A stretch of DNA of 60,000 nt from a bacterium (lineage in GTDB: Bacteria; Vulcanimicrobiota; Vulcanimicrobiia; Vulcanimicrobiales; Vulcanimicrobiaceae), in the NCBI GenBank assembly GCA_021805775.1, contig JAJZED010000005.1:1-60000 (forward strand), in the 5' to 3' direction. Under the pieces are notes generated by a model. The model worked only from the letters and a program-made list of their open reading frames with translations. It did not search any database and was not told the DNA's origin. Positions 4,383 through 51,527 of this stretch are shown here, in pieces (the first letter of the stretch is position 1; the number at the start of each line of letters is the position of its first letter). The position numbers and the translations under genes are program-made.

Positions 4383-6655
4383 TCGCAGAGCGAGCGCTTC
4401 ACCTCCGGGTCCTCGGCGGCGGGCCGGGCGGACTCTACGCCGCCCTGCTTGCAAAGGCGCGTTTTCCGCACTGGCGCGTCGAGCTTGCCGAACGGAACGC
4501 CTTCGGCGATACCTTTGGCTGGGGCGTCGTTTTCTCCGATGCGACACTCGACGGCCTCGCGCTCGCCGATCCGGAGAGCTTTGCCCGCATCGAGCGCAGT
4601 TTCGTGCGTTGGGATGATATCGAGGTCCATATTCAAAAGAGCGTCGTTCGCTCGAGCGGACACGGCTTTGCCGGCATCGCGCGGAAAAAACTGCTCGCAA
4701 TTCTCCACGAACGCGCGGAGACGCTGGGAGTCGATCTTCGCTACAACGAGTCGGTTGACGATATCGATGCTTTTCGTGCCGGCTGCGACATTCTCGTCGC
4801 GGCCGACGGCGTCCACTCGTCCGCGCGCGCCCGTTTCGCCGCGGTTTTTGGGCCGACCATCGTTGGGGGACGCTGCAAATTCGTTTGGCTGGGCAGCACG
4901 GTGCCGCTCGATGCATTCACGTTTTTCTTTAAGCGTACCGAACATGGCTGGTTTACCGTCCACGCTTATCGTTTTGACGAACGAACGAGCACGTTCATCG
5001 TCGAATGCCGGGAGGAGACGTGGCGCGCGCACGGCCTCGATCGTGCCGATGTTGCCGCGACGGTCGCTTTCTGCGAAACCCTCTTCGCCGAAGAGCTCGG
5101 TGGCGGCAAGTTACTGAGCAATCCCGGACATCGGCGCGGAAGCGCGTGGATCGATTTTACGTTCGTGGATAATCGGCATTGGCATGACGGGAATATCGTG
5201 CTACTGGGGGATGCCGCTCACACGGCACATTTTTCGGTCGGCTCCGGAACGAAGCTCGCCATGGAAGATGCGATCGCTCTCGTCGATGCCTTCGCAAGCA
5301 GCACGACGGTGGAGGAGGCGTTCTCGCGCTACGAAGACGAACGAAAAATCGAAGTGCTCAAACTGCAAAATGCGGCGCGCAATTCGACGCAATGGTTTGA
5401 AAACGTCGCGCGCTACGCCCGGCTCGATCCGCAGACCTTCGCCTACAGTTTGCTCACGCGTAGCCAACGAATCGGTCACGAAAATCTCCGCGCCCGCGAT
5501 GCGCGCTACGTCGAAGCGATCGAGACGACATTCGGCGATCCTCCGGTTCCGCCGATGTTCTCTCCCTTTGCGCTGCGCGACATGCAGGTATGCAATCGCG
5601 TCGTCGTCTCGCCGATGGATACCTATAGCGCAGTCGACGGGCTTCCCAATGACTTTCACGTGGTTCACTACGGAAGCAGAGCGCTCGGCGGCGCCGGGCT
5701 CGTCATCACCGAGATGACCTGCGTGAGCCCGCAGGGGCGAATCACGCCGGGATGCACCGGAATGTATGCGCCGGAGCACGTCGCGGCGTGGCGACGGATC
5801 GTCGATTTCGTTCACGAACGCACGCCGGCGAAGATCGCGCTCCAACTCGGCCACTCGGGGCCGAAGGGCTCGACGAAATTAATGTGGGAGGGCATGGACG
5901 AACCGCTTGCGACCGGGAATTGGCCGGTTCTCGGCCCATCGGCGGTCCCGTATGCAGCCGGTGGGGCGACCCCGCACGAGCTCGACGAGCCGGGTATGCG
6001 GGCGATTCTCGAGGAGTTTACCCGAGCGACGGCGATGGCGATTGAAGCCGGCTTCGATATGCTCGAACTCCATTGCGCGCACGGGTATCTGCTCTCGTCG
6101 TTTCTGACGCCGCTGCGGAACCGGCGCGACGATCGCTACGGAGGAACGCTCGAAAACCGCTTGCGCTTTCCGCTCGAGGTTTTTGGAGCGATGCGGAGCC
6201 TCTGGCCCGCGAACCGCCCGATCTCGGTTCGTATCTCGGCGACCGACTGGTGCGAGGGCGGTAACGACGAGCGCGACGCGCTCGATATCGCGCGTGCCTT
6301 CCGGAATGCGGGGGCCGATCTCATCGACGTATCGACCGGGCAGACCGATCCGCAAAGTCGGCCGCGTTTCGGACGGATGTTTCAAGCTCCCTTCGCCGAT
6401 GCGATTCGCAACGAGGTCGGCATCGCGACGATGGCCGTGGGGAATATTACCGAACACGAACAGGTCAACGCGTTAATCGCCGGCGGAAGAGCCGACCTCG
6501 TGGCGCTCGGGCGCCCGCATCTCGCCGATCCCTATTGGACGCTGCACGCCGCCGCCGAACTTCAGTATCGCGAGCAGCCGTGGCCGCTTCAGTACCTTCC
6601 GGGAAAAGAACAACTCGAACGCGCGATCGCGCGCAGAATGGAGCAAGGTCCGTGA
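4379..6655 (+). CDS. two-domain anthraniloyl-CoA monooxygenase/reductase-like flavoprotein
   Basis: A 758-residue fusion. Residues 1 to about 390 form an aromatic hydroxylase (FAD motif GGGPGG at 13-18; [14 protein letters not shown] with Asp278). Residues from about 400 form an Old Yellow Enzyme-type reductase, with [11 protein letters not shown] (His565, His568, Tyr570 matching the OYE substrate residues) and RRDDRYGG. This architecture is known from 2-aminobenzoyl-CoA monooxygenase/reductase of aerobic anthranilate degradation; databases often label it 'bifunctional salicylyl-CoA 5-hydroxylase/oxidoreductase'. It would hydroxylate and reduce an aromatic CoA thioester using NAD(P)H and O2. 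GTG start, overlapping the upstream stop; the end overlaps the SDR start. Anthraniloyl-CoA versus salicyloyl-CoA as substrate is undecided, but the nearby RidA favours the amino compound. Confidence 0.88.
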
Positions 6656-7377
6656 ACGAACTCGATCTTCGAACTCAGCACGTCGTCATTACCGGAGCCT
6701 CGCGCGGTATCGGGCTCGCGATCGCGCGCGCTTGCGTCGCCGCCGGTGCCGTCGTGAGCGGAATGAGCCGCGCCGGGAAATGCGAGCCGGGAATCGACGC
6801 GATCCGTTGCGACGTCACCGACGCAGCCGATATCGCCGCCGCATTTGCAGCCGCGCGCGAACGCCACGGAGCGGTGACGATGTTGGTCAACAACGCGGGC
6901 ATTGCCGCCTCGGCGCCGCTCGCGCGAACGAGCGATGATTTATGGGAGCGAATTCTCGCAACGAATGTAACGGGAACATTTCGTTGCTCGCGCGCCGTCA
7001 TCGAGGAAATGCGCGCCGCGAAATTCGGACGCATCGTCAACGTTGCATCGATCGCCGGGCTCTACGGCGCGCCGTATATCTCGGCATACTGCGCGAGCAA
7101 GCATGGGGTGATCGGGCTCACGCGCGCGCTCGCGGCGGAGTTCGCGGGCTCGGGGATCTGCATCAATGCGATCTGTCCGGGCTACACCGAAACCGATATG
7201 ATGCAGCAAGCGGTCGACCAGATCGTCGCTCACACCGGGGTGAGCGCTGAGAATGCACGCGCGCAGTTGGCGGCGATGAATCCCAGCGGCCGCATTATCG
7301 ACGTTGCGAGCGTCGCGCGCAGCGTCGTGGAGTTGTTGGCGAGCGACCGCAACGGCGAGGAACTCGTTCTCGCCTGA
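6652..7377 (+). CDS. short-chain dehydrogenase/reductase (SDR)
   Basis: A 241-residue classical SDR with cofactor motif TGASRGIG (residues 14-21), NNAG, and the catalytic serine/Tyr-x3-Lys set (NVASIAG ... YCASK). It starts with GTG overlapping the stop of the monooxygenase/reductase gene and is the third gene of that operon. In a CoA-dependent aromatic pathway a 3-hydroxyacyl-CoA or ring-alcohol dehydrogenase step is expected, and an SDR could fill it. That assignment rests on position only. Its 3' end converges with the glycosyltransferase gene five bases away. Confidence 0.9.
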
Positions 7378-7382
7378 CGGAG

Positions 7383-8900
7383 CTACGCTCCGTACCAGCG
7401 CAAGGAACGCCAGAGCGCAGCGCGCGATAAGCGCGGCTGCGTGCAATAGAAGATCGGCGTGGGGCCTTCGACCACCGCACGCAGGGGGTCGAAGGTCGTC
7501 CCCAGCAGCGTGCAGCGTGCATACGCGGCAAAGAGCCGATGCTCGCGGCTTGCCCCGACGGCGAGGATATCGTGCAAGTCGTACGCGCGCGTCCCCCAGA
7601 GCCAGTAAGCGTTCTGGCTGCCGATCGCCGGAGGCAAGCCGTAGCGAGCGCCAAATCGATCGATCGCGCCCGCATCGGCATAGGTATCGGCGTAGACCGC
7701 GGTGCGTGCGCGCAGGGTGGACGGCAGACTCCGATAGATTCGTGCGACATCCTCTGCAAGACGGCGCCAGCCGAACTCTTCGGCAAAGAGCGGTTGTATC
7801 AATTGCGGTTTCGTGCCGTTCGTACCGGTGAGATGCAGGGCCGCCGCATAGGCGACGAACGTGTTGACCGGTAGAACCGGTGCGGCGAAGGGAAGGATGG
7901 CGAGCGCCGATGCTGCGGTGGCGGCGACGGCAACTGCACGCACGGCAAGTCGAGGACGCGTAACGCGCTCGAACGCCTGGGATCCAAGAGCGAGGAGCGT
8001 ACCGTACATGCCGATGATGTAGTAGCCCTTTGCATCGAGTGCGACGGCCGCGAGGGTGGTCAACAGCGCTGCGACGCCGAGAAATCGGAGACCTGGGGAG
8101 CGGAGCGCGACGACGATACCGAGCAGCCACAGCGGTACGAGGAGTGGATTGGTGTAGCCGACCTGCTCGATGACGAACGCAAGCGCGTTGGTGAGAGAGG
8201 CGTGGTATTCGAGCTGCCAACCGTTATTGAACGGATGTCGGCCAATGAAATCGGAACGAAGAACCTCCGCGAACGGCCATCCGTGTAGCGCTTGCCAACT
8301 CGCGTTGGGAAGGAGCGCGACGAACGCAACTACCGCTGCGACGAATGCGGTGCGCGAGAGCAGAAACCGACGTTCTGAAGAGGCGGCGATTCCGATGGCA
8401 AGCGCGCCTACCCAAAGGAAGATCGAGTATTTGCCGTAGGCGCCGAACGCGATCGCCGCCCCGAGCAGCGCCCCGGCGCTCACTGAAGGTTTTCGGAGCG
8501 CGCGTACGGCGAGCATTGCGACGAGCGACCACGAAAGTGGCTCGAACGATGTCGTAGTCAAGACGCTGCCGAGCGTGAGGTATGCTGGAAGGAGAGCGAC
8601 GGAGAGCGCGGCGAGGGCGCGGGCAAAGCGCTCGCCGCCAAGATCGCGCACGAACGTCGAGATGGCAAGCACGTTCAGTGCAGCGGCGAGAGCCACCGGT
8701 GCACGGAGAACGAAAATGTTCCAGTGAAACGGTCGTGAGAGCAGCGCCGCGAGAGCAACGAGCGGCGGCTGATCGGGATAACCCCACGCGAGATGTTGCG
8801 CGCAGGCAATGAAGTAGAGTTCGTCGCGAAAGTATCCGTAGTTCCCCGCAAACGCAAGGTGGAAAAGAAAGGTCAGAAGCGCGATCAGCTCGGGGATCAC
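7383..8900 (-). CDS. glycosyltransferase family 39-type membrane protein
   Basis: A 505-residue polytopic protein. Its start (helix, then GYFRDELYFIACAQHL, then YPDQPPLV) is the hallmark of ArnT/PMT-like GT39 enzymes, where the acidic DE pair sits in the first periplasmic loop. Such enzymes move sugars from polyprenyl-phosphate donors to lipids or proteins on the outer face of the membrane. About ten helices precede a soluble C-terminal region. The GTG start overlaps the stop of the upstream membrane gene (GTGA). It interrupts the catabolic genes on the opposite strand and its acceptor is unknown. Confidence 0.88.
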   Translation of the reverse strand: MIPELIALLTFLFHLAFAGNYGYFRDELYFIACAQHLAWGYPDQPPLVALAALLSRPFHWNIFVLRAPVALAAALNVLAISTFVRDLGGERFARALAALSVALLPAYLTLGSVLTTTSFEPLSWSLVAMLAVRALRKPSVSAGALLGAAIAFGAYGKYSIFLWVGALAIGIAASSERRFLLSRTAFVAAVVAFVALLPNASWQALHGWPFAEVLRSDFIGRHPFNNGWQLEYHASLTNALAFVIEQVGYTNPLLVPLWLLGIVVALRSPGLRFLGVAALLTTLAAVALDAKGYYIIGMYGTLLALGSQAFERVTRPRLAVRAVAVAATAASALAILPFAAPVLPVNTFVAYAAALHLTGTNGTKPQLIQPLFAEEFGWRRLAEDVARIYRSLPSTLRARTAVYADTYADAGAIDRFGARYGLPPAIGSQNAYWLWGTRAYDLHDILAVGASREHRLFAAYARCTLLGTTFDPLRAVVEGPTPIFYCTQPRLSRAALWRSLRWYGA

Positions 8901-9943
8901 GCGCTGCGTGCGCGCATCGTCAAGAACGATAGGCCCATTCCGGTCGCGGCGGTCCAGAGCAGCACCCCGAGCCGGAAGTGAATATCCCACCACAGCCCGC
9001 CGGTGAGCTCGGTGATCACGAGGTAACAGGCGAAGTACGAAAATGGGACGATGACGGCCAGCGTGCGGTATGCCCCGGGGCGAGCGGGGTGCGGATCGCG
9101 CAACGCGATCCATGCATCACCGACCAATCCGGCGAGCAGCGAACAGAGAATCGTGGTGGCGAGGAGGGGCGTTGCGTTGGTAAAGGGGATCGCGTTGAGG
9201 GTGTTCCCCAGGAGTAAAACGACGGCGAGCATGCCGAAGGCGCTGCGAAATTGGCTGCCCAGGAACAAGGCGAAACCGGAGTAGAGCGCCGACTGAAAAA
9301 TAACCACCAGAACGCCGAGCGAGCTCTTATAGTAACTGAGCGCTATTGCCGTAAAATAGGTTGCCTGCAGCGGCGATATCGGGGGCGGCGCATTTCCGCG
9401 ATCCGCTGCCGGAATGAACGCATACGCTGTCCCGAAATGGATCAGTCCCAGCCAGGCCGCGAGAGCGAACGCTATCGGTAGTTGTTCGCGCAGCCCCTTC
9501 GGTGGCGCACCGAGATCGCGGGCGGCAAGTGCGCTGCGAATCGGAGCCGACGCGAAGAAAAATATCGCCAATCCCATCATTTGATGCGTCGGGCTCAAGA
9601 GCGCATCGACGCCCTCTTCGAGCCCAAAAATGGCGTGCCAGAGTGCATCGCTCGGAGCGGCGATCAGGAAGATCGGAATACCGATCAGTGCGAGGTGATA
9701 GGGCTTCGCGAAGGCATGTATGCCGCGATATCCGAGGCGGCGCCCGTGAAAATACTGCGCTGCGAGCGTTCCGAGGATCGCGAGCATGCCGAGATAGATA
9801 AATCCGTGATAGGGCGTGAGAAAGGTTTCGATCGGGACGTGGCCGTGAGCCCAGGCGTCGATAAAAAAGCCGGTGACGATCGTGAGGCACGAGAGCGACA
9901 TAGCATAATCGAGCAGAAGACTACGGGGAGCGTTGCCGTCCAT
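8897..9943 (-). CDS. polytopic membrane protein of unknown family with conserved-looking Asp/His/Trp motifs
   Basis: A 348-residue protein with about nine hydrophobic segments. Polar residues inside or at the ends of helices stand out: DAWAHGHVPIETFLTPYHG near the N-terminus, then SDALWHAIFGLEEGVDALL and SPTHQMMG. Intramembrane D-x-x-x-H and H-rich motifs of this kind suggest metal or quinone binding, but I cannot assign a family. It is translationally coupled to the GT39-type gene downstream. Its start is 77 bases from the divergent lipoprotein gene. Confidence 0.75.
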   Translation of the reverse strand: MDGNAPRSLLLDYAMSLSCLTIVTGFFIDAWAHGHVPIETFLTPYHGFIYLGMLAILGTLAAQYFHGRRLGYRGIHAFAKPYHLALIGIPIFLIAAPSDALWHAIFGLEEGVDALLSPTHQMMGLAIFFFASAPIRSALAARDLGAPPKGLREQLPIAFALAAWLGLIHFGTAYAFIPAADRGNAPPPISPLQATYFTAIALSYYKSSLGVLVVIFQSALYSGFALFLGSQFRSAFGMLAVVLLLGNTLNAIPFTNATPLLATTILCSLLAGLVGDAWIALRDPHPARPGAYRTLAVIVPFSYFACYLVITELTGGLWWDIHFRLGVLLWTAATGMGLSFLTMRARSA

Positions 9944-44154: not shown

Positions 44155-44445
44155 ATGGCGCGAGGAAAACGCCGAGGTGGGCGTCCGGCGAAAAAGCCGA
44201 ATGCCGACAAAGCCGCCAAGACGGCGGTGCCCAAGGAAGAGGCGATCGAGGTCGAAGGCACGATCGTCGAACCCCTCCCCAATGCGATGTTCCGCGTCGA
44301 ACTAGCAAACGGGCATCGGGTGCTCGCCCACGTTTCGGGAAAAATTCGAATGAACTTCATCCGAATTCTTCCGGGAGATCGCGTGTTAGTCGAACTCTCG
44401 CCGTACGATTTAACGCACGGCCGCATTACCTACCGCTACAAATAA
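44155..44445 (+). CDS. infA: translation initiation factor IF-1 with basic N-terminal extension
   Basis: A 96-residue IF-1. The S1/OB core ([20 protein letters not shown] ... ISGK-like [19 protein letters not shown] ... [12 protein letters not shown]) is of normal size (about 70 residues). It is preceded by about 25 residues rich in Lys, Arg and Ala ([20 protein letters not shown]). AGGAG lies eight bases before the ATG at 44155. A GTG at 44227 would give a standard IF-1 but has no evident ribosome binding site, so the long form is preferred. Confidence 0.92.
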
Positions 44446-44599: not shown

Positions 44600-44983
44600 A
44601 TGGCTCGCATTTCCGGTATCGATCTCCCGCGCGAAAAGCGCATCGAGATCGCGCTCACGTATATTTACGGCATCGGCCCGACCACGGCGGCGAAGTTGCT
44701 CGAACGAGCAGGCATCGATCCGAGCCGTCGGGTGAAAGAGCTCTCCGAGGAAGACGAGAAGCGTCTTCGCGAAGCGATCGACGTACTCGCGCTTCGGCTT
44801 GAGGGAGATCTTCGCCGCGAGGTACAGGGCAATATCAAGCGCCTGATGGATATCGGTTGTTATCGCGGCTTGCGCCACCGGCGCGGGCTTCCCGTCCGCG
44901 GCCAACGCACGAAGACCAATGCGCGTACGCGTAAGGGTCCCAAGCGCACCGTCGCCGGCAAGAAGAAGACCGTTAAGAAGTAA
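44600..44983 (+). CDS. rpsM: 30S ribosomal protein S13 (uS13)
   Basis: A 127-residue S13 ([37 protein letters not shown]; the C-terminal [20 protein letters not shown]). It contacts P-site tRNA and the central subunit bridge. rpsK, normally next, is separated from it by 6.1 kb and five unrelated genes. Confidence 0.98.
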
Positions 44984-44996
44984 CGCGGTACCTTCG

Positions 44997-45752
44997 GTGA
45001 CGATCGACGGGATCAACGTCGCAATCGCCGCCGGAGGACGCATCGGCGGTGCCTTCGCCGCCGAAGTTGGGACGGAAGTCAAAGCCCTCGCCCCGATCGG
45101 AGCGAGCACCATCCTCGAACGAACGATCGCCGCCGCCGCCGCTTTAGGCGCGCGGCGGATCGTCGTTCTCGGCGACGCCGAAATTGCCGCACGTTGCGAC
45201 CGGCGGGTGGAGCGCGTTCTTCCCGATTACGGGGACGGCGCTGCGAATATGCTGGCCTGCCTGCGCGCGTTTCGCGACGACACCGCAGCATCGGCGATCC
45301 TGTTGCTTGCCTGCGATCTGCCGTTTCTCACCGCCGCCGCGCTCCACCGATATCTGGAGGCGATTCCCGCAGAAGCAGTCGCGCTCGGAATCTGCAGCGG
45401 CGACGAGTATGAAGCTCGCTTCCCGGGTGCGCCGACAAACGGCGTCATCCTTCGCCGCGAACGCATCGTGAACGCCGGTGCGTTCGTCGTGCCGTTGTCG
45501 GCCGTCGATTCGGTGGCCCGCGAGAGCGCCGCCTTTTTTAACGCTCGAAAGTATCCGTGGCAAATGGCGATGCGCGCCGGCTTCGGTATTCTCGCCGCAC
45601 ACGCGATCGGTCGCCTCGGCGTAGCACAGATCGAGCGCCGTGCGGCGCGAGTGCTCGGCACGACGGTCGCGGCGATACGCGGTTGCCCGCCCGAACTTTG
45701 CTTCGACGTCGATTCGCTCGATGAATATCGGTACGCACGTGCGCGTACCTGA
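44997..45752 (+). CDS. MobA-like nucleotidyltransferase
   Basis: A 251-residue protein with the N-terminal fold of NTP transferases: the loop IAAGGRIGG in place of the canonical LAGGxSxRMG, LLLACDLPFLTAAAL with the metal-binding Asp, and a VALGICSGDEYEARFP segment. MobA attaches GMP to molybdopterin; relatives transfer nucleotides to sugars or other cofactors. The altered nucleotide loop makes MobA function doubtful. GTG start 13 bases after rpsM. It overlaps the following MFS gene by 32 bases. Confidence 0.75.
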   Translation: MTIDGINVAIAAGGRIGGAFAAEVGTEVKALAPIGASTILERTIAAAAALGARRIVVLGDAEIAARCDRRVERVLPDYGDGAANMLACLRAFRDDTAASAILLLACDLPFLTAAALHRYLEAIPAEAVALGICSGDEYEARFPGAPTNGVILRRERIVNAGAFVVPLSAVDSVARESAAFFNARKYPWQMAMRAGFGILAAHAIGRLGVAQIERRAARVLGTTVAAIRGCPPELCFDVDSLDEYRYARART

Positions 45753-46947
45753 AGCGGCGCGGCTCGCGTTTTTTTGGTTCGGCATCCAAGTTGTATGGGG
45801 GGCCGTTCTCGGGGTGCTACTCCAGGTTCGCTTGGTCTCGACCTTCGCGGGCGATGCCGCCGAGAAGTACGCACTCTTTGCTGCGGCCGGAGCGGTGGTT
45901 GCAATTCTCGCGCAGCTTGCATCGGCGAAACTCTCCGACCGAGCGGTGGCGCGCGGAGGTTCGCGGGCGTCGCTCTATCTCGTCGGCACGCTCCTTGCCG
46001 CCGGCGCTATCGTTGCATTCCTTACCGAGGAGTCGGCGCGAGCGCTGTTCGCGGCATATCTTCTGTTGCAGGTCGGTATGAACGTTGCCGTCGCGCCATA
46101 TCAAGCTGCAGTGCCGGAGTATTTGAAACGCGAGCAGCAGCGCGCAGGGAGCGCTTGGTTGGCGGCGATGCAGAGCCTCGGTAACGCCGTCGGTGCCGTT
46201 ATTGCAGCGCTGCTCTCGCTTCCGCTAACCGCGGTGATTCTGCCGTTGCTCCTCATAGGAAGTTTAGCTTTGGGGTACCGTTCGCTCGCGCGCATCGTCG
46301 CGAGAGAGATCGATGAGAAAACACCGACGAAGATCACGCGAGCGCACGTCGACCTTTTTGGCTCTCGAGCGATGATCTTTCTCGCGTTCTATACGATGCT
46401 CGGTTATCTCTATTTTTGGGTGATCGGTTCGAGGTTCGCCGTTTCCGTCTCCCCGCGGACGATCGCCGGCGCGGCGATCGTCCTCTTCACTCTTACCGGC
46501 GTCGCCGGAGCCGCGCTTGCCGGGCGCCTCGGCGCGCGCCTGGAACTTCGCGCCACCGCGATGGTTGGGATCGCTGCGTTCGCCGTCGCGACGGCGCTCT
46601 ACGCGACGTCCGGCGGTATCGCGGTGTTATCGGTTGCAAGCGTTGTCGGCGGACTCGGTTGGGGAGCATTCTTAAGTGCCGATTGGGCACTGGGGGCTCG
46701 CTACGTTTTGCCGAATGCGCGCGCGCTCGGTTTCGCACTATGGAACCTTGCGGTCGTTCTCCCGCAATTCTTCGCACCTTCCATAGTTGGGGTTCTTGCG
46801 GCAATCGCTCGCCCCGTGGGCCCTTGGGATACCAGTCGGTTCGCCTTTGGTATTGCGTTTTTCGAGCTCGTCGTGGGTATGATTTGGCTGGTGCGCTTAC
46901 CAAGAAGCGATAGCGCGATGGAACTTCGCGCAATCGAGAGGCGTTAA
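45721..46947 (+). CDS. major facilitator superfamily transporter
   Basis: A 408-residue, about 12-helix transporter. The loop after helix 2 (SAKLSDRAVARGGSRASLY) matches the MFS signature, and the sequence falls into two halves around a central cytoplasmic loop (IVAREIDEKTPTKITRAH). It resembles the sugar/glycoside-like branch of MFS (helix 1 with WFGIQVVWGAVLG, and PEYLKREQQRAGSAW), but the substrate is not known. The ATG at 45721 lies inside the preceding gene. Confidence 0.85.
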   Translation: MNIGTHVRVPEAARLAFFWFGIQVVWGAVLGVLLQVRLVSTFAGDAAEKYALFAAAGAVVAILAQLASAKLSDRAVARGGSRASLYLVGTLLAAGAIVAFLTEESARALFAAYLLLQVGMNVAVAPYQAAVPEYLKREQQRAGSAWLAAMQSLGNAVGAVIAALLSLPLTAVILPLLLIGSLALGYRSLARIVAREIDEKTPTKITRAHVDLFGSRAMIFLAFYTMLGYLYFWVIGSRFAVSVSPRTIAGAAIVLFTLTGVAGAALAGRLGARLELRATAMVGIAAFAVATALYATSGGIAVLSVASVVGGLGWGAFLSADWALGARYVLPNARALGFALWNLAVVLPQFFAPSIVGVLAAIARPVGPWDTSRFAFGIAFFELVVGMIWLVRLPRSDSAMELRAIERR

Positions 46948-46996
46948 GCGCCTGATGGGCAGGGCCTATCGTCCTATACTTCAATCTGGAGGAATA

Positions 46997-48325
46997 ATGA
47001 AACGACTCAGCACCGGAGTTCTCGCAGCGCTCATCGTAGCGTTGAGCGGGCTCAATGCCGTCGCGGCATCCTCGAAGACGCAAGCACCGGGTAACAACGG
47101 ACACAAGGTTCTTGCCGATTCGATGGCGGGTATGCCGTCGGCGAATTTCGGAACGCCCCCTACGGGATCGATTCCGATTCTCTTCAACGACCATCACGTC
47201 TACACCAAGCCCGACCTTATGAAAAAAGGTCGCGTGCTTGCGGCAATCGTGCGCGGTGGAACGATTCTCGTTCCGCTTCGTTCGATGTTCGAACAGATGG
47301 GCGCGACGGTTTCGTATAATGCCGCCACCAAAGCGATCACCGTAAGCAAACCGGGTGCCGAGGTTAAATTGACCGTCGGCAGCCGCGTCGCGATGATCGA
47401 CGGAGAAGAACGCAGTCTCGACGTTCCGCCGATGCTCTACAAAGGCAGCGTCGTCGTTCCGATTCGCGTGATCTCCGAAAGCATGGGCGCCTACGTGCAG
47501 TGGGTTCCCGAACAGAAGGTTGTCGTCGTTCGTTACGTGGTTCCGACGCCGGCTCCGACGGAAGCTCCGGCGACGCCGGCCCCCGTTGCGACGCCGATGC
47601 CGACACCGCCGCCGACCCCGACTCCCGCTCCCGTCGTCCATAAAGCGACGCAAGAGCACTTCGTGATCGGCGACTACATCGCATCGCCGAAAGTCTACAA
47701 CGAATTTAGCCCTGGAAATACCTCCAAGAGCGGTTCGTACGATTTCCGCGGAGCCTATGAATTCAGCGCATTCAATTTGCCCTGGATGCTCGAAGGCGAT
47801 TTCCGCAGCTATCAATATCCGCACAATTGCACCTCGGCAAATCCGGCACCGGCCGGCGATCAGTGTAACGTCACGACGATCGGGAACACCGGGTCGACCT
47901 TCGTTCCGGCCTTCACGGCGCGCGACCGCGATGCGGAAGTTCGCCTCGGCCTGAAGGTTGCCGATCCGCGTATCTACGTCGGCGTCGGTTATCTCTATCG
48001 CACGACCAACTACGGCTACCCGGCGCAAAAAGGCTTTGGCTTCGGTGCGGAAAAACTGCCCGACCTCAACAAAGGCTTCTCGCTCTACGGTAGCGCGTGG
48101 TACTACCCGAACCTGAAAGGAAACTACACCGATCCGGGAACCGGGCTCGGCTATACTCTGGGATACAATCTCCTGAAGTATCAGATCGGTGCGGCGATCA
48201 CCATCCCGAAGAGCCCGATCTTTATCGATCTCGGCTTCGTCGGCGATACGGGTCGCAATAAGAGCAACGCACCGGGGGGCTTCACGCACGCCGGTCCGTA
48301 TATCGGCCTCGGTCTCTCCTTCTAG
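46997..48325 (+). CDS. exported stalk-domain protein with C-terminal domain of unknown family, copy 1
   Basis: A 442-residue exported protein. After a signal peptide (cleavage near AVAAS, about residue 24) comes a copper amine oxidase N-terminal-like 'stalk' domain (PF07833-type; ILFNDHHVYTKPDLMKKGRV ... TILVPLRSMFEQMGATVSYN ... VVVPIRVISESMGAYVQWVP). A Pro/Thr/Ala linker of about 45 residues follows. The last 220 residues form a domain I do not recognise, with PKVYNEFSPGN, YPHNC and alternating amphipathic strands ending in GLGLSF. GGAGG precedes the ATG. The stalk domain suggests cell-surface anchoring. Copy 2 follows after a terminator. Confidence 0.85.
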   Translation: MKRLSTGVLAALIVALSGLNAVAASSKTQAPGNNGHKVLADSMAGMPSANFGTPPTGSIPILFNDHHVYTKPDLMKKGRVLAAIVRGGTILVPLRSMFEQMGATVSYNAATKAITVSKPGAEVKLTVGSRVAMIDGEERSLDVPPMLYKGSVVVPIRVISESMGAYVQWVPEQKVVVVRYVVPTPAPTEAPATPAPVATPMPTPPPTPTPAPVVHKATQEHFVIGDYIASPKVYNEFSPGNTSKSGSYDFRGAYEFSAFNLPWMLEGDFRSYQYPHNCTSANPAPAGDQCNVTTIGNTGSTFVPAFTARDRDAEVRLGLKVADPRIYVGVGYLYRTTNYGYPAQKGFGFGAEKLPDLNKGFSLYGSAWYYPNLKGNYTDPGTGLGYTLGYNLLKYQIGAAITIPKSPIFIDLGFVGDTGRNKSNAPGGFTHAGPYIGLGLSF

Positions 48326-48348
48326 CGAAGGCGCGATCTCAGGTCACG

Positions 48349-48384
48349 GCACCCCCGAGTTTACGCTCGGGGGTGCTTCATTTT
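48349..48384 (+). terminator. Rho-independent terminator after stalk-domain gene 1
   Basis: An 11-base-pair perfect stem (GCACCCCCGAG / CTCGGGGGTGC) with a six-base loop is followed by TTCATTTT. It lies 24 bases after the stop codon and separates the paralogous pair. Confidence 0.9.
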
Positions 48385-48469
48385 CGGCGTCCCTCACTTG
48401 CCGCAGGGGAGCGTGGTGAAGACGCGGAAGGCGGCGCGTAACACCGTTGCCCTCAAGGAGATGGGATCG

Positions 48470-49675
48470 ATGCTTCGTTCTCTTGCATTCGCTTTATTCG
48501 CCGCATCGATAGGGCTCACGCCGGCGGTCGCAGCGACTACCGCTCCGACGCTCCTATTCAATAATCGGCACGTTCGGGCAAGACCCGCCGTAACGGTGAA
48601 CGGACGCGTGATCGCCGCTCTCGTCGATGGGAAACGACTTCTCGTTCCGCTTCGCGCGATGTTTGAGGCGATGGGTGCCCAGGTTCGCTACGACGCCGTG
48701 CGCCGACGTATCGATGTCCGAAAGCCCGGCTCCTCGATCGTGCTCTGGGTCGGCAAGAAGCTCGCGCGCATCAACGGCCAGGAGCGGATATTGCGTTCGC
48801 CGCCGCTTCTGCGAGATGGGCGCGTTCTGGTGCCGATCCGCATCGTCTCCGAGACGATGGGCGCGTACGTTCAGTGGGTTCCCGGGCGTCGGATCGCCGT
48901 CGTGCGGTTCGTGCCGCCGACGCCGTTACCCGCCCCGACCGCGAGCCCCGCCCCGGCCGCCGCGCCGACTGCCGCGCCGGTTCCAACGGTGAACTCGACA
49001 CCCTTCCCGCTGCCCGCAGCGACACCGAGGCCCGAGTCCTATATGATGCTCGATTACTTTCTCAAGCCGAAAGTATATAACGAATTCAGTCCTGGAAATT
49101 CAGCGAATGCCAACCTCTGGAGTTTCCGCACCGGCGAAGAATTTCGCGCGTTCCAACTCCATCTCGCCGTTGACGAGACGATCGACACCTGGATCTATCC
49201 GCACAATTGCAACGGCGTGGGCGACCCTCAGTGCATGGTCACGACGATCGGCGGCAACGGTTCGGCGTACGTTCCGGCGTTCCAGGCGCTCGACCGCTCG
49301 ACCGAGACGCATCTCGGCATAAAGATCGCCGAACCGCGGATCTATCTTGCGGCCGGATATATGGTGAGAACGACGAGATATGGATATCCGCCGATGCTCG
49401 GCCTCGGGTACGGCTTGATGAAATTGCCGGATCTCGATCGTCCGTTCTCGCTCTACGCATCGATCTTTTACTATCCGCAGGTGAAGGGCGGCAACGGCCT
49501 CTACGATCTCGGTTATCACGTCACGAGCTATCGCGCCGGTTTCACGTACGCCCTTGGAAAATCACCGCTCTTCGTCGACGGTGGGTACGTCGGCGACAGC
49601 GGAACGAACGCCTTTAATGCGCCGTCGGGCTTCACGCATAGCGGAGCTTTTCTTGGCCTTGGATTAAAGATCTAA
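48470..49675 (+). CDS. exported stalk-domain protein with C-terminal domain of unknown family, copy 2
   Basis: A 401-residue paralog of the preceding protein with the same order: signal peptide, stalk domain (LLFNNRHVRARPAVTVNGRV ... LLVPLRAMFEAMGAQVRYDA ... VLVPIRIVSETMGAYVQWVP), Ala/Pro-rich linker, and the same C-terminal domain (KPKVYNEFSPGN; WIYPHNC; GFTHSGAFLGLGLKI). The shared motifs YNEFSPGN, YPHNC, VTTIG and YGYP define a family. The ATG at 48470 is preferred because AAGGAG lies nine bases upstream; an ATG at 48461 directly abuts it. Its 3' end overlaps the convergent patatin gene by 12 bases. Confidence 0.83.
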   Translation: MLRSLAFALFAASIGLTPAVAATTAPTLLFNNRHVRARPAVTVNGRVIAALVDGKRLLVPLRAMFEAMGAQVRYDAVRRRIDVRKPGSSIVLWVGKKLARINGQERILRSPPLLRDGRVLVPIRIVSETMGAYVQWVPGRRIAVVRFVPPTPLPAPTASPAPAAAPTAAPVPTVNSTPFPLPAATPRPESYMMLDYFLKPKVYNEFSPGNSANANLWSFRTGEEFRAFQLHLAVDETIDTWIYPHNCNGVGDPQCMVTTIGGNGSAYVPAFQALDRSTETHLGIKIAEPRIYLAAGYMVRTTRYGYPPMLGLGYGLMKLPDLDRPFSLYASIFYYPQVKGGNGLYDLGYHVTSYRAGFTYALGKSPLFVDGGYVGDSGTNAFNAPSGFTHSGAFLGLGLKI

Positions 49676-50899
49676 TACGTCGGTCGTTCGCGACCGTGAA
49701 GAAATATTCGGAATTCCCAGAGCCTCGGCGGGGCGGTAGCGTCGAAAACCCTTCGCTCCGTCGACGAGGCCTCGCCGGTATGCGTCGTCGATCGGACCTT
49801 GGAGGTTGAACCCGGCGACGTCCACGCTCAGCTCTTCCGACGGCCGTATCGATGCCAATGTGACATCGAGAATGTAATCGAAAATGCGTTCGCTTCCGTT
49901 CCGCTGTTTCGATTTCGGTAGCGCGCGATACGCGCGTTTACCGAGCGATTCGAAGAATGCGTTGCGCAGGTCGACGTCGAGAATGCGCGTCTGCATGGTT
50001 TCGATGACTCCTAAGCCGACATCGACCGCCGATTTTGCGACAAATGGATCGTCTCGGTCGGGATCGACGAAGACGATGTCGACGCTCTTTGCAACGGCGC
50101 GGGCGGCGGCGAGCGGCACGTTGGCGATCACGCCGCCGTCGATAAAGCGATCGACCCCCAGCCCGGCGCTCTTCGGGAGCTCGACCGGATCGAAGACGAC
50201 GGGAAGCGCCGCCGAGGCAAAGAGCGCGCGCACCGTGATATCGGGGGTGAGGGGGCGAACGGCGATCGGCGAGCCCATAGCGACCCTGAGGCGGTCGATG
50301 CTCTCGGCTCGCTCCTGCGCGGTTGCCTCGCGGGCGAGGCGGTAGAAGAGCTCGCCGCGACGATAGGTGAGGTTGGTCGCGAGCGCGGCATAGGAGATCA
50401 GCATCGGGCTTCGCGGGTCGATATGGCGCGCGAGCCAGCGTTCGACGACGCCCCCATCGGCGATGCCGGTGACGTCGGTGGCGAGCCCGATCCCCAGGCG
50501 AAGCGCCTCGACGAAGCGATTGAGGAGGCCGGCGGTGACCTCGGGGATCTTCGCGAAGCGCGGCTTCGGGCGGATTACGCGCGCTGCGGCGATCGTTCCC
50601 CAGAGCTCCGCGAGCTCGCTATAGCGACCCGCCGCTACGAACCAGGCGTTGATCGCCCCGATCGAACTGCCGAAAACCGCTCGATAGGGCGGCAGCGGCT
50701 CCCCGTCGCCGATGCCCGCTTCTCGGCGGAGGGCTTCGATGACTCCGGCCTCGTACGCGCCGCGAGCGCCTCCGCCGCTGAGGACCAGGGCCGCCGGGGC
50801 GCGAACGTCGCGCTCCTCGGGAAAGGCAGCGAGTGCTCCCGGAAGGGCGAGCCCTCCCGGAATCCCGAGCAGGCTGGAGAGGAAGGCCGTCCGTCGCAT
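49664..50899 (-). CDS. patatin-like phospholipase
   Basis: A 411-residue lipid acyl hydrolase of the patatin family. The oxyanion loop is SGGGARGAYEAGV (residues 41-53), the nucleophile elbow GSSIG (Ser79) and the catalytic Asp sits in FIDGGVIANVP. The N-terminus (MRRTAFLSSLLGIPGGLALP) looks like a signal peptide with a twin-arginine-like start, so it may be exported. The gene is convergent with the second stalk-domain gene and divergent from rpsK. Confidence 0.9.
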   Translation of the reverse strand: MRRTAFLSSLLGIPGGLALPGALAAFPEERDVRAPAALVLSGGGARGAYEAGVIEALRREAGIGDGEPLPPYRAVFGSSIGAINAWFVAAGRYSELAELWGTIAAARVIRPKPRFAKIPEVTAGLLNRFVEALRLGIGLATDVTGIADGGVVERWLARHIDPRSPMLISYAALATNLTYRRGELFYRLAREATAQERAESIDRLRVAMGSPIAVRPLTPDITVRALFASAALPVVFDPVELPKSAGLGVDRFIDGGVIANVPLAAARAVAKSVDIVFVDPDRDDPFVAKSAVDVGLGVIETMQTRILDVDLRNAFFESLGKRAYRALPKSKQRNGSERIFDYILDVTLASIRPSEELSVDVAGFNLQGPIDDAYRRGLVDGAKGFRRYRPAEALGIPNISSRSRTTDVLDL

Positions 50900-50926
50900 G
50901 CGCGAGCCTTCGGGCGTCGGAAGAAC

Positions 50927-50955
50927 TTGACCTAGAGCCGACTCTCCGGTAGACT
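50927..50955 (+). promoter_or_regulatory. promoter of the rpsK-rpsD-rpoA-rplQ operon
   Basis: TTGACC (50927-50932) and TAGACT (50950-50955) with a 17-base spacer lie 176 bases before rpsK and just upstream of the divergent patatin gene. No better candidate is seen closer to rpsK. The long leader has no obvious fold matched to S4 control. Confidence 0.6.
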
Positions 50956-51131
50956 CTTTCTTCGGCGCCGTCCACTCTAGCGGCGCACGCGGCATCGCCC
51001 GAGGACACCGTTTTGCGGGTCGGTCGGGCACGAACGCAATCGCCGAGCGTTCGAGAGAAGATCGGCACTGCCGGTCGAGGCGACGACACCCCGGCGTTCG
51101 GGGAAAGATAAAGTAGAAGCGGAGCTTTCGT

Positions 51132-51527
51132 TTGGCTGCCAAGAAGCAAACCAAAACACGTAAAAAACGTGAAGTTAAAAACGTCCATTCGGGCGTCGCT
51201 CACGTGCATGCGTCGTTTAACAACACGATCGTAACGATTGCCGACGGACACGGAAACGTGATCTCGTGGGCTTCGGCCGGTAATCTCGGATTCAAAGGCT
51301 CGAAGAAGTCGACGCCGTTCGCAGCGCAGATGGCGGCCGAAGCGGCCGCGCGCAAGGCGATCGAACACGGGATGAAAAGTACCGAAGTATTGGTGAAGGG
51401 CCCCGGATCGGGGCGCGAAGCGGCGATCCGTTCGCTGCAGGCCGCCGGACTGGAAGTGACGCTCATCAAAGATGTAACCCCTATCCCGCACAACGGCTGC
51501 CGCCCTCCAAAACGGCGTCGCGTGTAA
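51132..51527 (+). CDS. rpsK: 30S ribosomal protein S11 (uS11)
   Basis: A 131-residue S11 ([40 protein letters not shown] has a close equivalent; [20 protein letters not shown] at the end). It lines the mRNA exit platform. TTG is the apparent start, with GGAG eight bases upstream. It stands first in its own operon because of the insert after rpsM. Confidence 0.97.

Follow-up and report, generated by a model that had tools for sequence, protein, structure and literature searches.

Two neighbouring genes on the forward strand of the window, i.e. the whole stretch of 60,000 nucleotides that was analysed, encode paralogous proteins. In each, a short hydrophobic start that resembles a signal peptide (judged by eye) is followed by a stalk domain of the PF07833 family and, after a Pro-rich linker, a C-terminal domain that measures 221 residues in protein 1 and 212 in protein 2. 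The features are listed in Table 1. The two proteins are 52% identical from end to end and 53% identical in the C-terminal domain, and their stalks match PF07833 at 96.7 and 86.3 bits, respectively, against a curated cut-off of 24.2. This architecture had been read from the letters alone in a first-pass annotation and was borne out, and the five motifs singled out there (PKVYNEFSPGN, YPHNC, VTTIG, YGYP and GFTH) are all present in both proteins. The genes are referred to hereafter as stalk-barrel genes, after the fold predicted below for the C-terminal domain.

Table 1. Features of the two stalk-barrel genes, in positions of the window
Feature	Position	Strand	Basis or remark
Gene 1: stalk (PF07833), Pro-rich linker and predicted outer membrane beta-barrel	46997-48325	+	ATG to stop, 442 aa
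Gene 2, paralogue of gene 1	48470-49675	+	ATG to stop, 401 aa
Shine-Dalgarno-like GGAGGA ahead of gene 1	46988-46993	+	direct reading of sequence
Shine-Dalgarno-like AAGGAG ahead of gene 2	48455-48460	+	direct reading of sequence
N-terminal residues 1-23 of protein 1, resembling a signal peptide	46997-47065	+	judged by eye
Stalk domain of protein 1 (PF07833, Cu_amine_oxidN1), residues 82-177	47240-47527	+	E 9.6e-28
Pro-rich linker of protein 1	47543-47659	+	translation
C-terminal domain of protein 1, predicted 10-stranded outer membrane beta-barrel, ending GLGLSF	47660-48322	+	
Intrinsic terminator-like stem-loop 3' of gene 1	48348-48377	+	
Stalk domain of protein 2 (PF07833), residues 44-141	48599-48892	+	E 1.7e-24
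Pro-rich linker of protein 2	48920-49036	+	translation
C-terminal domain of protein 2, predicted barrel, ending GLGLKI	49037-49672	+	

The pair is located within a ribosomal cluster, in which Pfam identified L3, L4, L2, S3, L5, L6, SecY, EF-Tu and EF-G. The insert carrying both genes is flanked by rpsM (44600-44983) and rpsK (51132-51527); the names rpsM, rpsK, rpsD and rpoA are presumptive, given by inspection of the sequences. The genes rpsM and rpsK are usually adjacent. Here they are split by five genes (44983-51132), namely those for a MobA-like NTP transferase and an MFS transporter, the two stalk-barrel genes and a convergent patatin-like gene. The ribosomal setting claimed at first sight is therefore real, and it is kept elsewhere: 14 of the 24 loci rows examined (13 distinct, L051 and L124 being one contig) have a stalk-barrel gene between rpsM and rpsK, across six genera of one family, and the other 10, including two further paralogues of the window genome, do not. 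An MFS gene together with a stalk-barrel gene was also seen at the rpsM-rpsK site in four other genera (g2, g31, g32 and g35). The patatin-like phospholipase frame (49664-51154, reverse strand), into which gene 2 runs, adjoins the stalk-barrel pair in all four loci of the genus examined and also, with 42% identity, at L113; its product matches CBASS and other anti-phage phospholipase models weakly, far under their cut-offs.

Separate terminators and the ribosomal setting had also been taken to suggest high expression of each gene. Between positions 44400 and 51600, six terminator-like sites were observed, compared with a mean of 8.3 in shuffled sequences, so that the number of sites as such is meaningless. 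The site after gene 1 is clear, with a stem of 13 pairs (5-6 pairs in the other five) and perfect arms of 11 nucleotides, and none was found after gene 2; one of the two proposed terminators thus stands. Codon adaptation was 0.68 for gene 1 and 0.56 for gene 2, the leave-one-out range of 11 reference genes being 0.60-0.78, and since most other genes tried lay at about 0.60-0.71, the measure discriminates poorly. By this measure high expression is weakly compatible with gene 1 and unsupported for gene 2, and codon use, being weak and non-discriminating, was dropped as a guide to expression level.

The C-terminal domains alone gave nothing above cut-off in Pfam or NCBIfam and no match in PHROGs. 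Among 23 members of the domain searched against Pfam, none matched the omptin family (PF01278) at E 0.1 and one touched the generic OMP_b-brl model (E 0.073), and a profile of the barrel found a single chance-level match (E 1.1) among PDB sequences. A domain of about 220 residues with no clear match to a characterised family by sequence had been expected, and so far as length and sequence are concerned this holds; its predicted fold, however, matches known 10-stranded outer membrane barrels. The best of five AlphaFold2 models of the domain, built from 23 alignment rows, reached a pLDDT of 88.2 and a pTM of 0.83, the other four being less confident (pLDDT 76.0, 75.0, 67.6 and 46.5), and it contains about 10 strands by DSSP when residues 2-13 are taken as one strand. 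The ten best PDB matches returned by Foldseek for this model were all outer membrane barrels, including 9nh1 (E 1.8e-5), OpcA (3.0e-5), omptins (8e-4 to 9e-4) and OmpG (1e-3). VIA-align placed OpcA (2vdf) at the top with Z 17.6 over 200 residues, 3.9 A and 10% identity, followed by 9nh1_B (Z 16.9) and the omptins (Z 15.6-16.5), with aligned spans of 193-200 residues, after which the score stepped down from 15.6 to 11.3, a designed transmembrane barrel. By both programs the closest folds are those of OpcA, Legionella porin I and the omptins. The full-length model had a mean pLDDT of 63.6 (below 50 up to residue 88 and over most of the linker, about 62-82 for the stalk), and the same outer membrane barrels head the 50 Foldseek matches listed for it. 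According to these models the C-terminal domain is very probably a 10-stranded outer membrane beta-barrel. Of the two folds originally put forward, barrel and sandwich, the latter was ruled out, the model and its best matches being transmembrane barrels.

Two Cys, at residues 57 and 69 of P0003, lie in the longest loop and are kept in 17 of the 23 alignment members; the remaining six (L050-L055) have two Cys at other positions of this loop. Such paired Cys may form a disulphide. Weak relatives of the barrel were also found in open frames of 232-293 aa at L083, L085 and L086, where no stalk was evident by eye.

The end of the domain was compared among relatives. Among 74 distinct domains complete to the last position of the profile, 61 have Phe as the final residue, 7 Ile, 4 Leu and 2 Val; the Phe-ending domains mostly close with GLG[I/L/V]xF, and protein 1 ends with Phe and protein 2 with Ile. 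A terminal Phe is common among BAM substrates. The window genome encodes a protein of the Omp85 family. WPS-2 genomes, which are relatives, are described as encoding BamA and LPS genes (PMC6664022), and a Gram-negative wall with an outer membrane and LPS is reported for a cultured representative of the phylum (PMC9758169).

The orientation of the protein was assessed on the AlphaFold2 model, in which the stretches following odd strands were counted by hand as 13, 29, 6, 6 and 5 residues and those following even strands as 2, 3, 7 and 5. The two long stretches comprise residues 14-26, after strand 1, and 56-84, after strand 3; only these are clearly longer, since the other three odd loops do not exceed the longer of the even turns. 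In a closed barrel with an even number of strands both termini lie on one side, and the long loops of outer membrane barrels are as a rule extracellular. Because the strand number is even and the first two odd loops are long, both termini would be periplasmic, so that the stalk and linker should lie in the periplasm and point inward, with the barrel loops outside. The first-pass annotation had instead placed the proteins at the cell surface, which may be read as a display of stalk and domain outside the cell. The outward-facing loops agree with this, and exported surface proteins often have a signal peptide, a Pro-rich linker and a C-terminal domain rich in beta strands, but display of the stalk is very improbable, since the even strand number and the first two loop lengths place it in the periplasm and no autotransporter-like helix through the barrel was seen, none being predicted between linker and barrel. 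What remains of the surface location is the loops, while stalk and linker are turned inward.

A profile search detected the barrel domain in 115 of the 149 phylum genomes, with E values reaching 1e-132 even when the window genome itself is left aside, so that chance is not in question. Its distribution follows the class, with 115 of the 117 genomes of the window's class (families f1-f3) positive and 0 of the 32 others in the phylum (18 listed without a match and 14 inferred from the tally); the two class genomes that gave no match have a completeness of 61% and 65%. PF07833 itself is present in 147 of 148 phylum genomes, and the window genome has four stalk-barrel copies among its nine PF07833 domains. 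A scan of genome contigs with two short patterns, which reach close relatives only, gave 17 loci, 11 of them titled Eremiobacterota. The relatives with a stated phylum belong to Candidatus Eremiobacterota; one of them is also labelled Vulcanimicrobiota, a phylum of kingdom Bacillati, and we take Bacillati, the kingdom of the window's phylum, to be the present name for Terrabacteria. A tree was built from 67 rows, of which 66 are different. In it gene 1 falls in a group of 8 rows (support 99/96) and gene 2 in another group of 8 rows (100/100), which includes the window's copy twice and sits on a long branch (1.12); the two groups are neighbours (96/71). Judging from these sequences, the arrangement is compatible with the pair having arisen by tandem duplication in the ancestor of the genus.

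The constraint on the parts of the protein was compared in 67 relatives, retained from 77 selected proteins, of which 73 had a stalk match and 70 enough of the stalk; the four with no stalk match come from stretches truncated on their 5' side. Since only rows with a stalk match were used, the comparison favours conserved stalks; within it, stalk identity exceeded barrel identity in 2168 of 2211 pairs, with means of 69.6% and 51.1%, and at least 90% of the relatives share 49 of 123 stalk positions and 39 of 221 barrel positions. The linker is 31-49 residues long and on average 41% Pro in these relatives. A polyproline helix rises about 0.31 nm per residue, and the linker would therefore span roughly 10-15 nm and could in principle bridge the outer membrane to the wall. 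At L120 (G016, about 4841-9255) three stalk-barrel genes occur in tandem, with stalks 69-70% and barrels 30-38% identical to those of protein 1; in this trio the barrels diversify and the stalk is kept. Candidates for stalk-less copies (the second frame of L066, L070, L076 and L079) lie on stretches that end short of or inside the stalk, and real loss was unsupported.

Among the barrel positions shared by at least 90% of the relatives are YNEF and YGYP, which we place on the model in extracellular loops 1 and 3; others, such as KLP, lie at a periplasmic turn. Because YNEF and YGYP are kept in extracellular loops, the outside face of the barrel may have a shared role too. The barrel might be the working part, serving as a small-ligand channel, a receptor or an enzyme in the manner of OpcA or the omptins, with the stalk as an accessory; these loop motifs are in keeping with this, as are the nearest folds, those of the adhesin OpcA, a Legionella porin and the omptin proteases. 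We nevertheless consider it unlikely, as no specific outer membrane family was matched by sequence (the omptin model by none of the 23 members at the threshold above), the stalk is the better conserved part, and barrels of 10 strands are in most cases too narrow to act as pores.

For the stalk, we know of no agreed function of PF07833. A search of the stalk sequence against structures gave the E. coli copper amine oxidase as the best match (E 0.0022), with the Paenibacillus Cu/Zn-SOD (PaSOD, 8imd) at chance level (E 0.95). PaSOD is reported to be a homodimer through its PF07833 domain, and the rest of the enzyme without the domain is monomeric (SEC-MALS and crystal 8IMD; PMC10432803); this domain appears unlike that of E. 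coli in structure. As the two domains appear unlike, neither is a sure guide to the present stalk. The main rival of wall binding is nevertheless drawn from this case: the periplasmic PF07833 domain could mediate dimerisation or oligomerisation and so cluster the barrels in the membrane, with no wall contact. Homodimerisation of PaSOD and the appearance of 8imd in the stalk search, though at chance level, speak for it; apart from the doubtful guidance of both structures, the kept linker length and high Pro content are unexplained by dimerisation alone, and dimerisation and wall binding are compatible rather than exclusive. We regard clustering without wall contact as rather improbable. A further PF07833 protein of the window genome (L007:1441-3117) carries a long His-rich tail with near-perfect THPVV and HSAPTH repeats, which is possibly metal-binding.

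Other tethers of the outer membrane were also searched for. SLH domains were found in 91 of 148 phylum genomes and 62 of 116 class genomes (4 of 14 control genomes, such as Thermus and Thermotoga, were positive), with none in the 10 genomes of the window's genus and no match in protein 1, protein 2 or the window genome. Two SLH proteins from the same class, both partial sequences, consist by eye of SLH, a coil-like stretch and a long C-terminal part, and look OmpM-like. The OmpA domain PF00691 occurs in 91 of 148 phylum genomes. The only match in the window genome is MotB (PF13677) adjoining MotA, by which Pal or OmpA was ruled out as its tether; in eight further genomes of the genus a single match lies in a frame of 279-281 aa, presumed to be the same MotB gene, and the remaining one, 61% complete, has none. 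With no SLH in the genus and, in the window genome, PF00691 only as MotB, no known tether is present there among the systems looked for. Lipoproteins or a LysM protein (one LysM match, in a 109-aa frame) could possibly serve as tethers instead. Neither SLH nor PF00691 was found in 16 of 116 class genomes, 14 of which have a stalk-barrel gene; as the family occurs both in genomes with SLH and in genomes that lack it, a simple substitution for OmpM is not indicated.

The closest likeness is to OmpM/SlpA of diderm Terrabacteria, which also combine an N-terminal periplasmic domain, an extended spacer and a C-terminal outer membrane barrel (PMC10628300, PMC9388160) and, in V. parvula, exist in four copies (PMC5491611), as stalk-barrels exist in several paralogues per genome. 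The stalk-barrel differs in having PF07833 rather than SLH, a Pro-rich flexible spacer rather than a coiled coil (no helix is predicted in the linker, at low confidence) and a 10-stranded barrel rather than a large porin, and peptidoglycan binding of its stalk is putative. Since SLH proteins with 8-stranded barrels are reported from Deinococcus (PMC9388160), a small barrel is in itself not new. The stalk-barrel is thus OmpM-like in outline and not an OmpM, SLH and coiled coil having both been looked for and not found. OmpA and OprF likewise link a small outer membrane barrel to a periplasmic domain, but they are 8-stranded with a C-terminal PF00691, so that domain order is reversed, strand number differs and the periplasmic domain is unrelated; neither protein 1 nor protein 2 matches PF00691. 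With OpcA and the omptins the predicted barrel fold aligns over 193-200 residues, but identity is about 10% and no Pfam match to omptins was obtained; the likeness to OpcA is one of fold alone. OpcA and the omptins are not known to carry a periplasmic stalk. The PF07833 proteins of Bacillota and others that we met (cell wall hydrolases, PaSOD and amine oxidase) have the stalk domain in common, and none of them is fused to an outer membrane barrel.

We infer export, BAM insertion, wall binding and tethering in the following way. Sec would export the chain and BAM would insert its C-terminal 215 or so residues as the 10-stranded barrel, leaving the N-terminal PF07833 domain to hang in the periplasm on a linker of 31-49 residues, roughly 40% Pro. 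The stalk domain would then dock on the peptidoglycan layer, or on a polymer or protein carried by it, and the docked protein would tie the outer membrane to the wall in the manner of OmpM or OmpA, with a different periplasmic anchor. By analogy with these systems, tethering of the outer membrane to the wall is our working interpretation, held tentatively and a little short of probable. It draws on the domain order, the predicted barrel fold, the terminal Phe, the class-wide conservation and the lack of matches to the SLH domain in the genus and to OmpA domains other than MotB in the window genome, and the better conserved stalk and the confined linker length count for it. Against it count the homodimerisation of PaSOD, the only experimentally studied PF07833 case found (PMC10432803), an amidase whose PF07833 match of 25.5 bits is barely over the 24.2 cut-off, the unequal confidence of the AlphaFold2 models, the low confidence of the full-length model and the Ile at the end of protein 2. 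No demonstration of peptidoglycan binding by PF07833 was met in the literature examined.

A wider proposal, which is possible but doubtful, is that PF07833 is a wall-binding anchor and that PF07833-barrels are a further type of tether between outer membrane and wall, beside OmpM (SLH) and OmpA/Pal (PF00691), near-universal in the class and, where lineages have lost SLH, the principal one. Neither PF07833-barrel proteins nor outer membrane tethers of Eremiobacterota are described in the titles or abstract beginnings among the matches listed. In most phyla of diderm Terrabacteria the well-characterised systems of outer membrane attachment are reported to be absent and OmpM to be used instead (PMC10628300, PMC9388160). 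If the proposal is true, a class-wide stalk-barrel family, often multi-copy per genome, would fill a gap in tethering, and PF07833 would gain a role that is testable in cultured Vulcanimicrobium.
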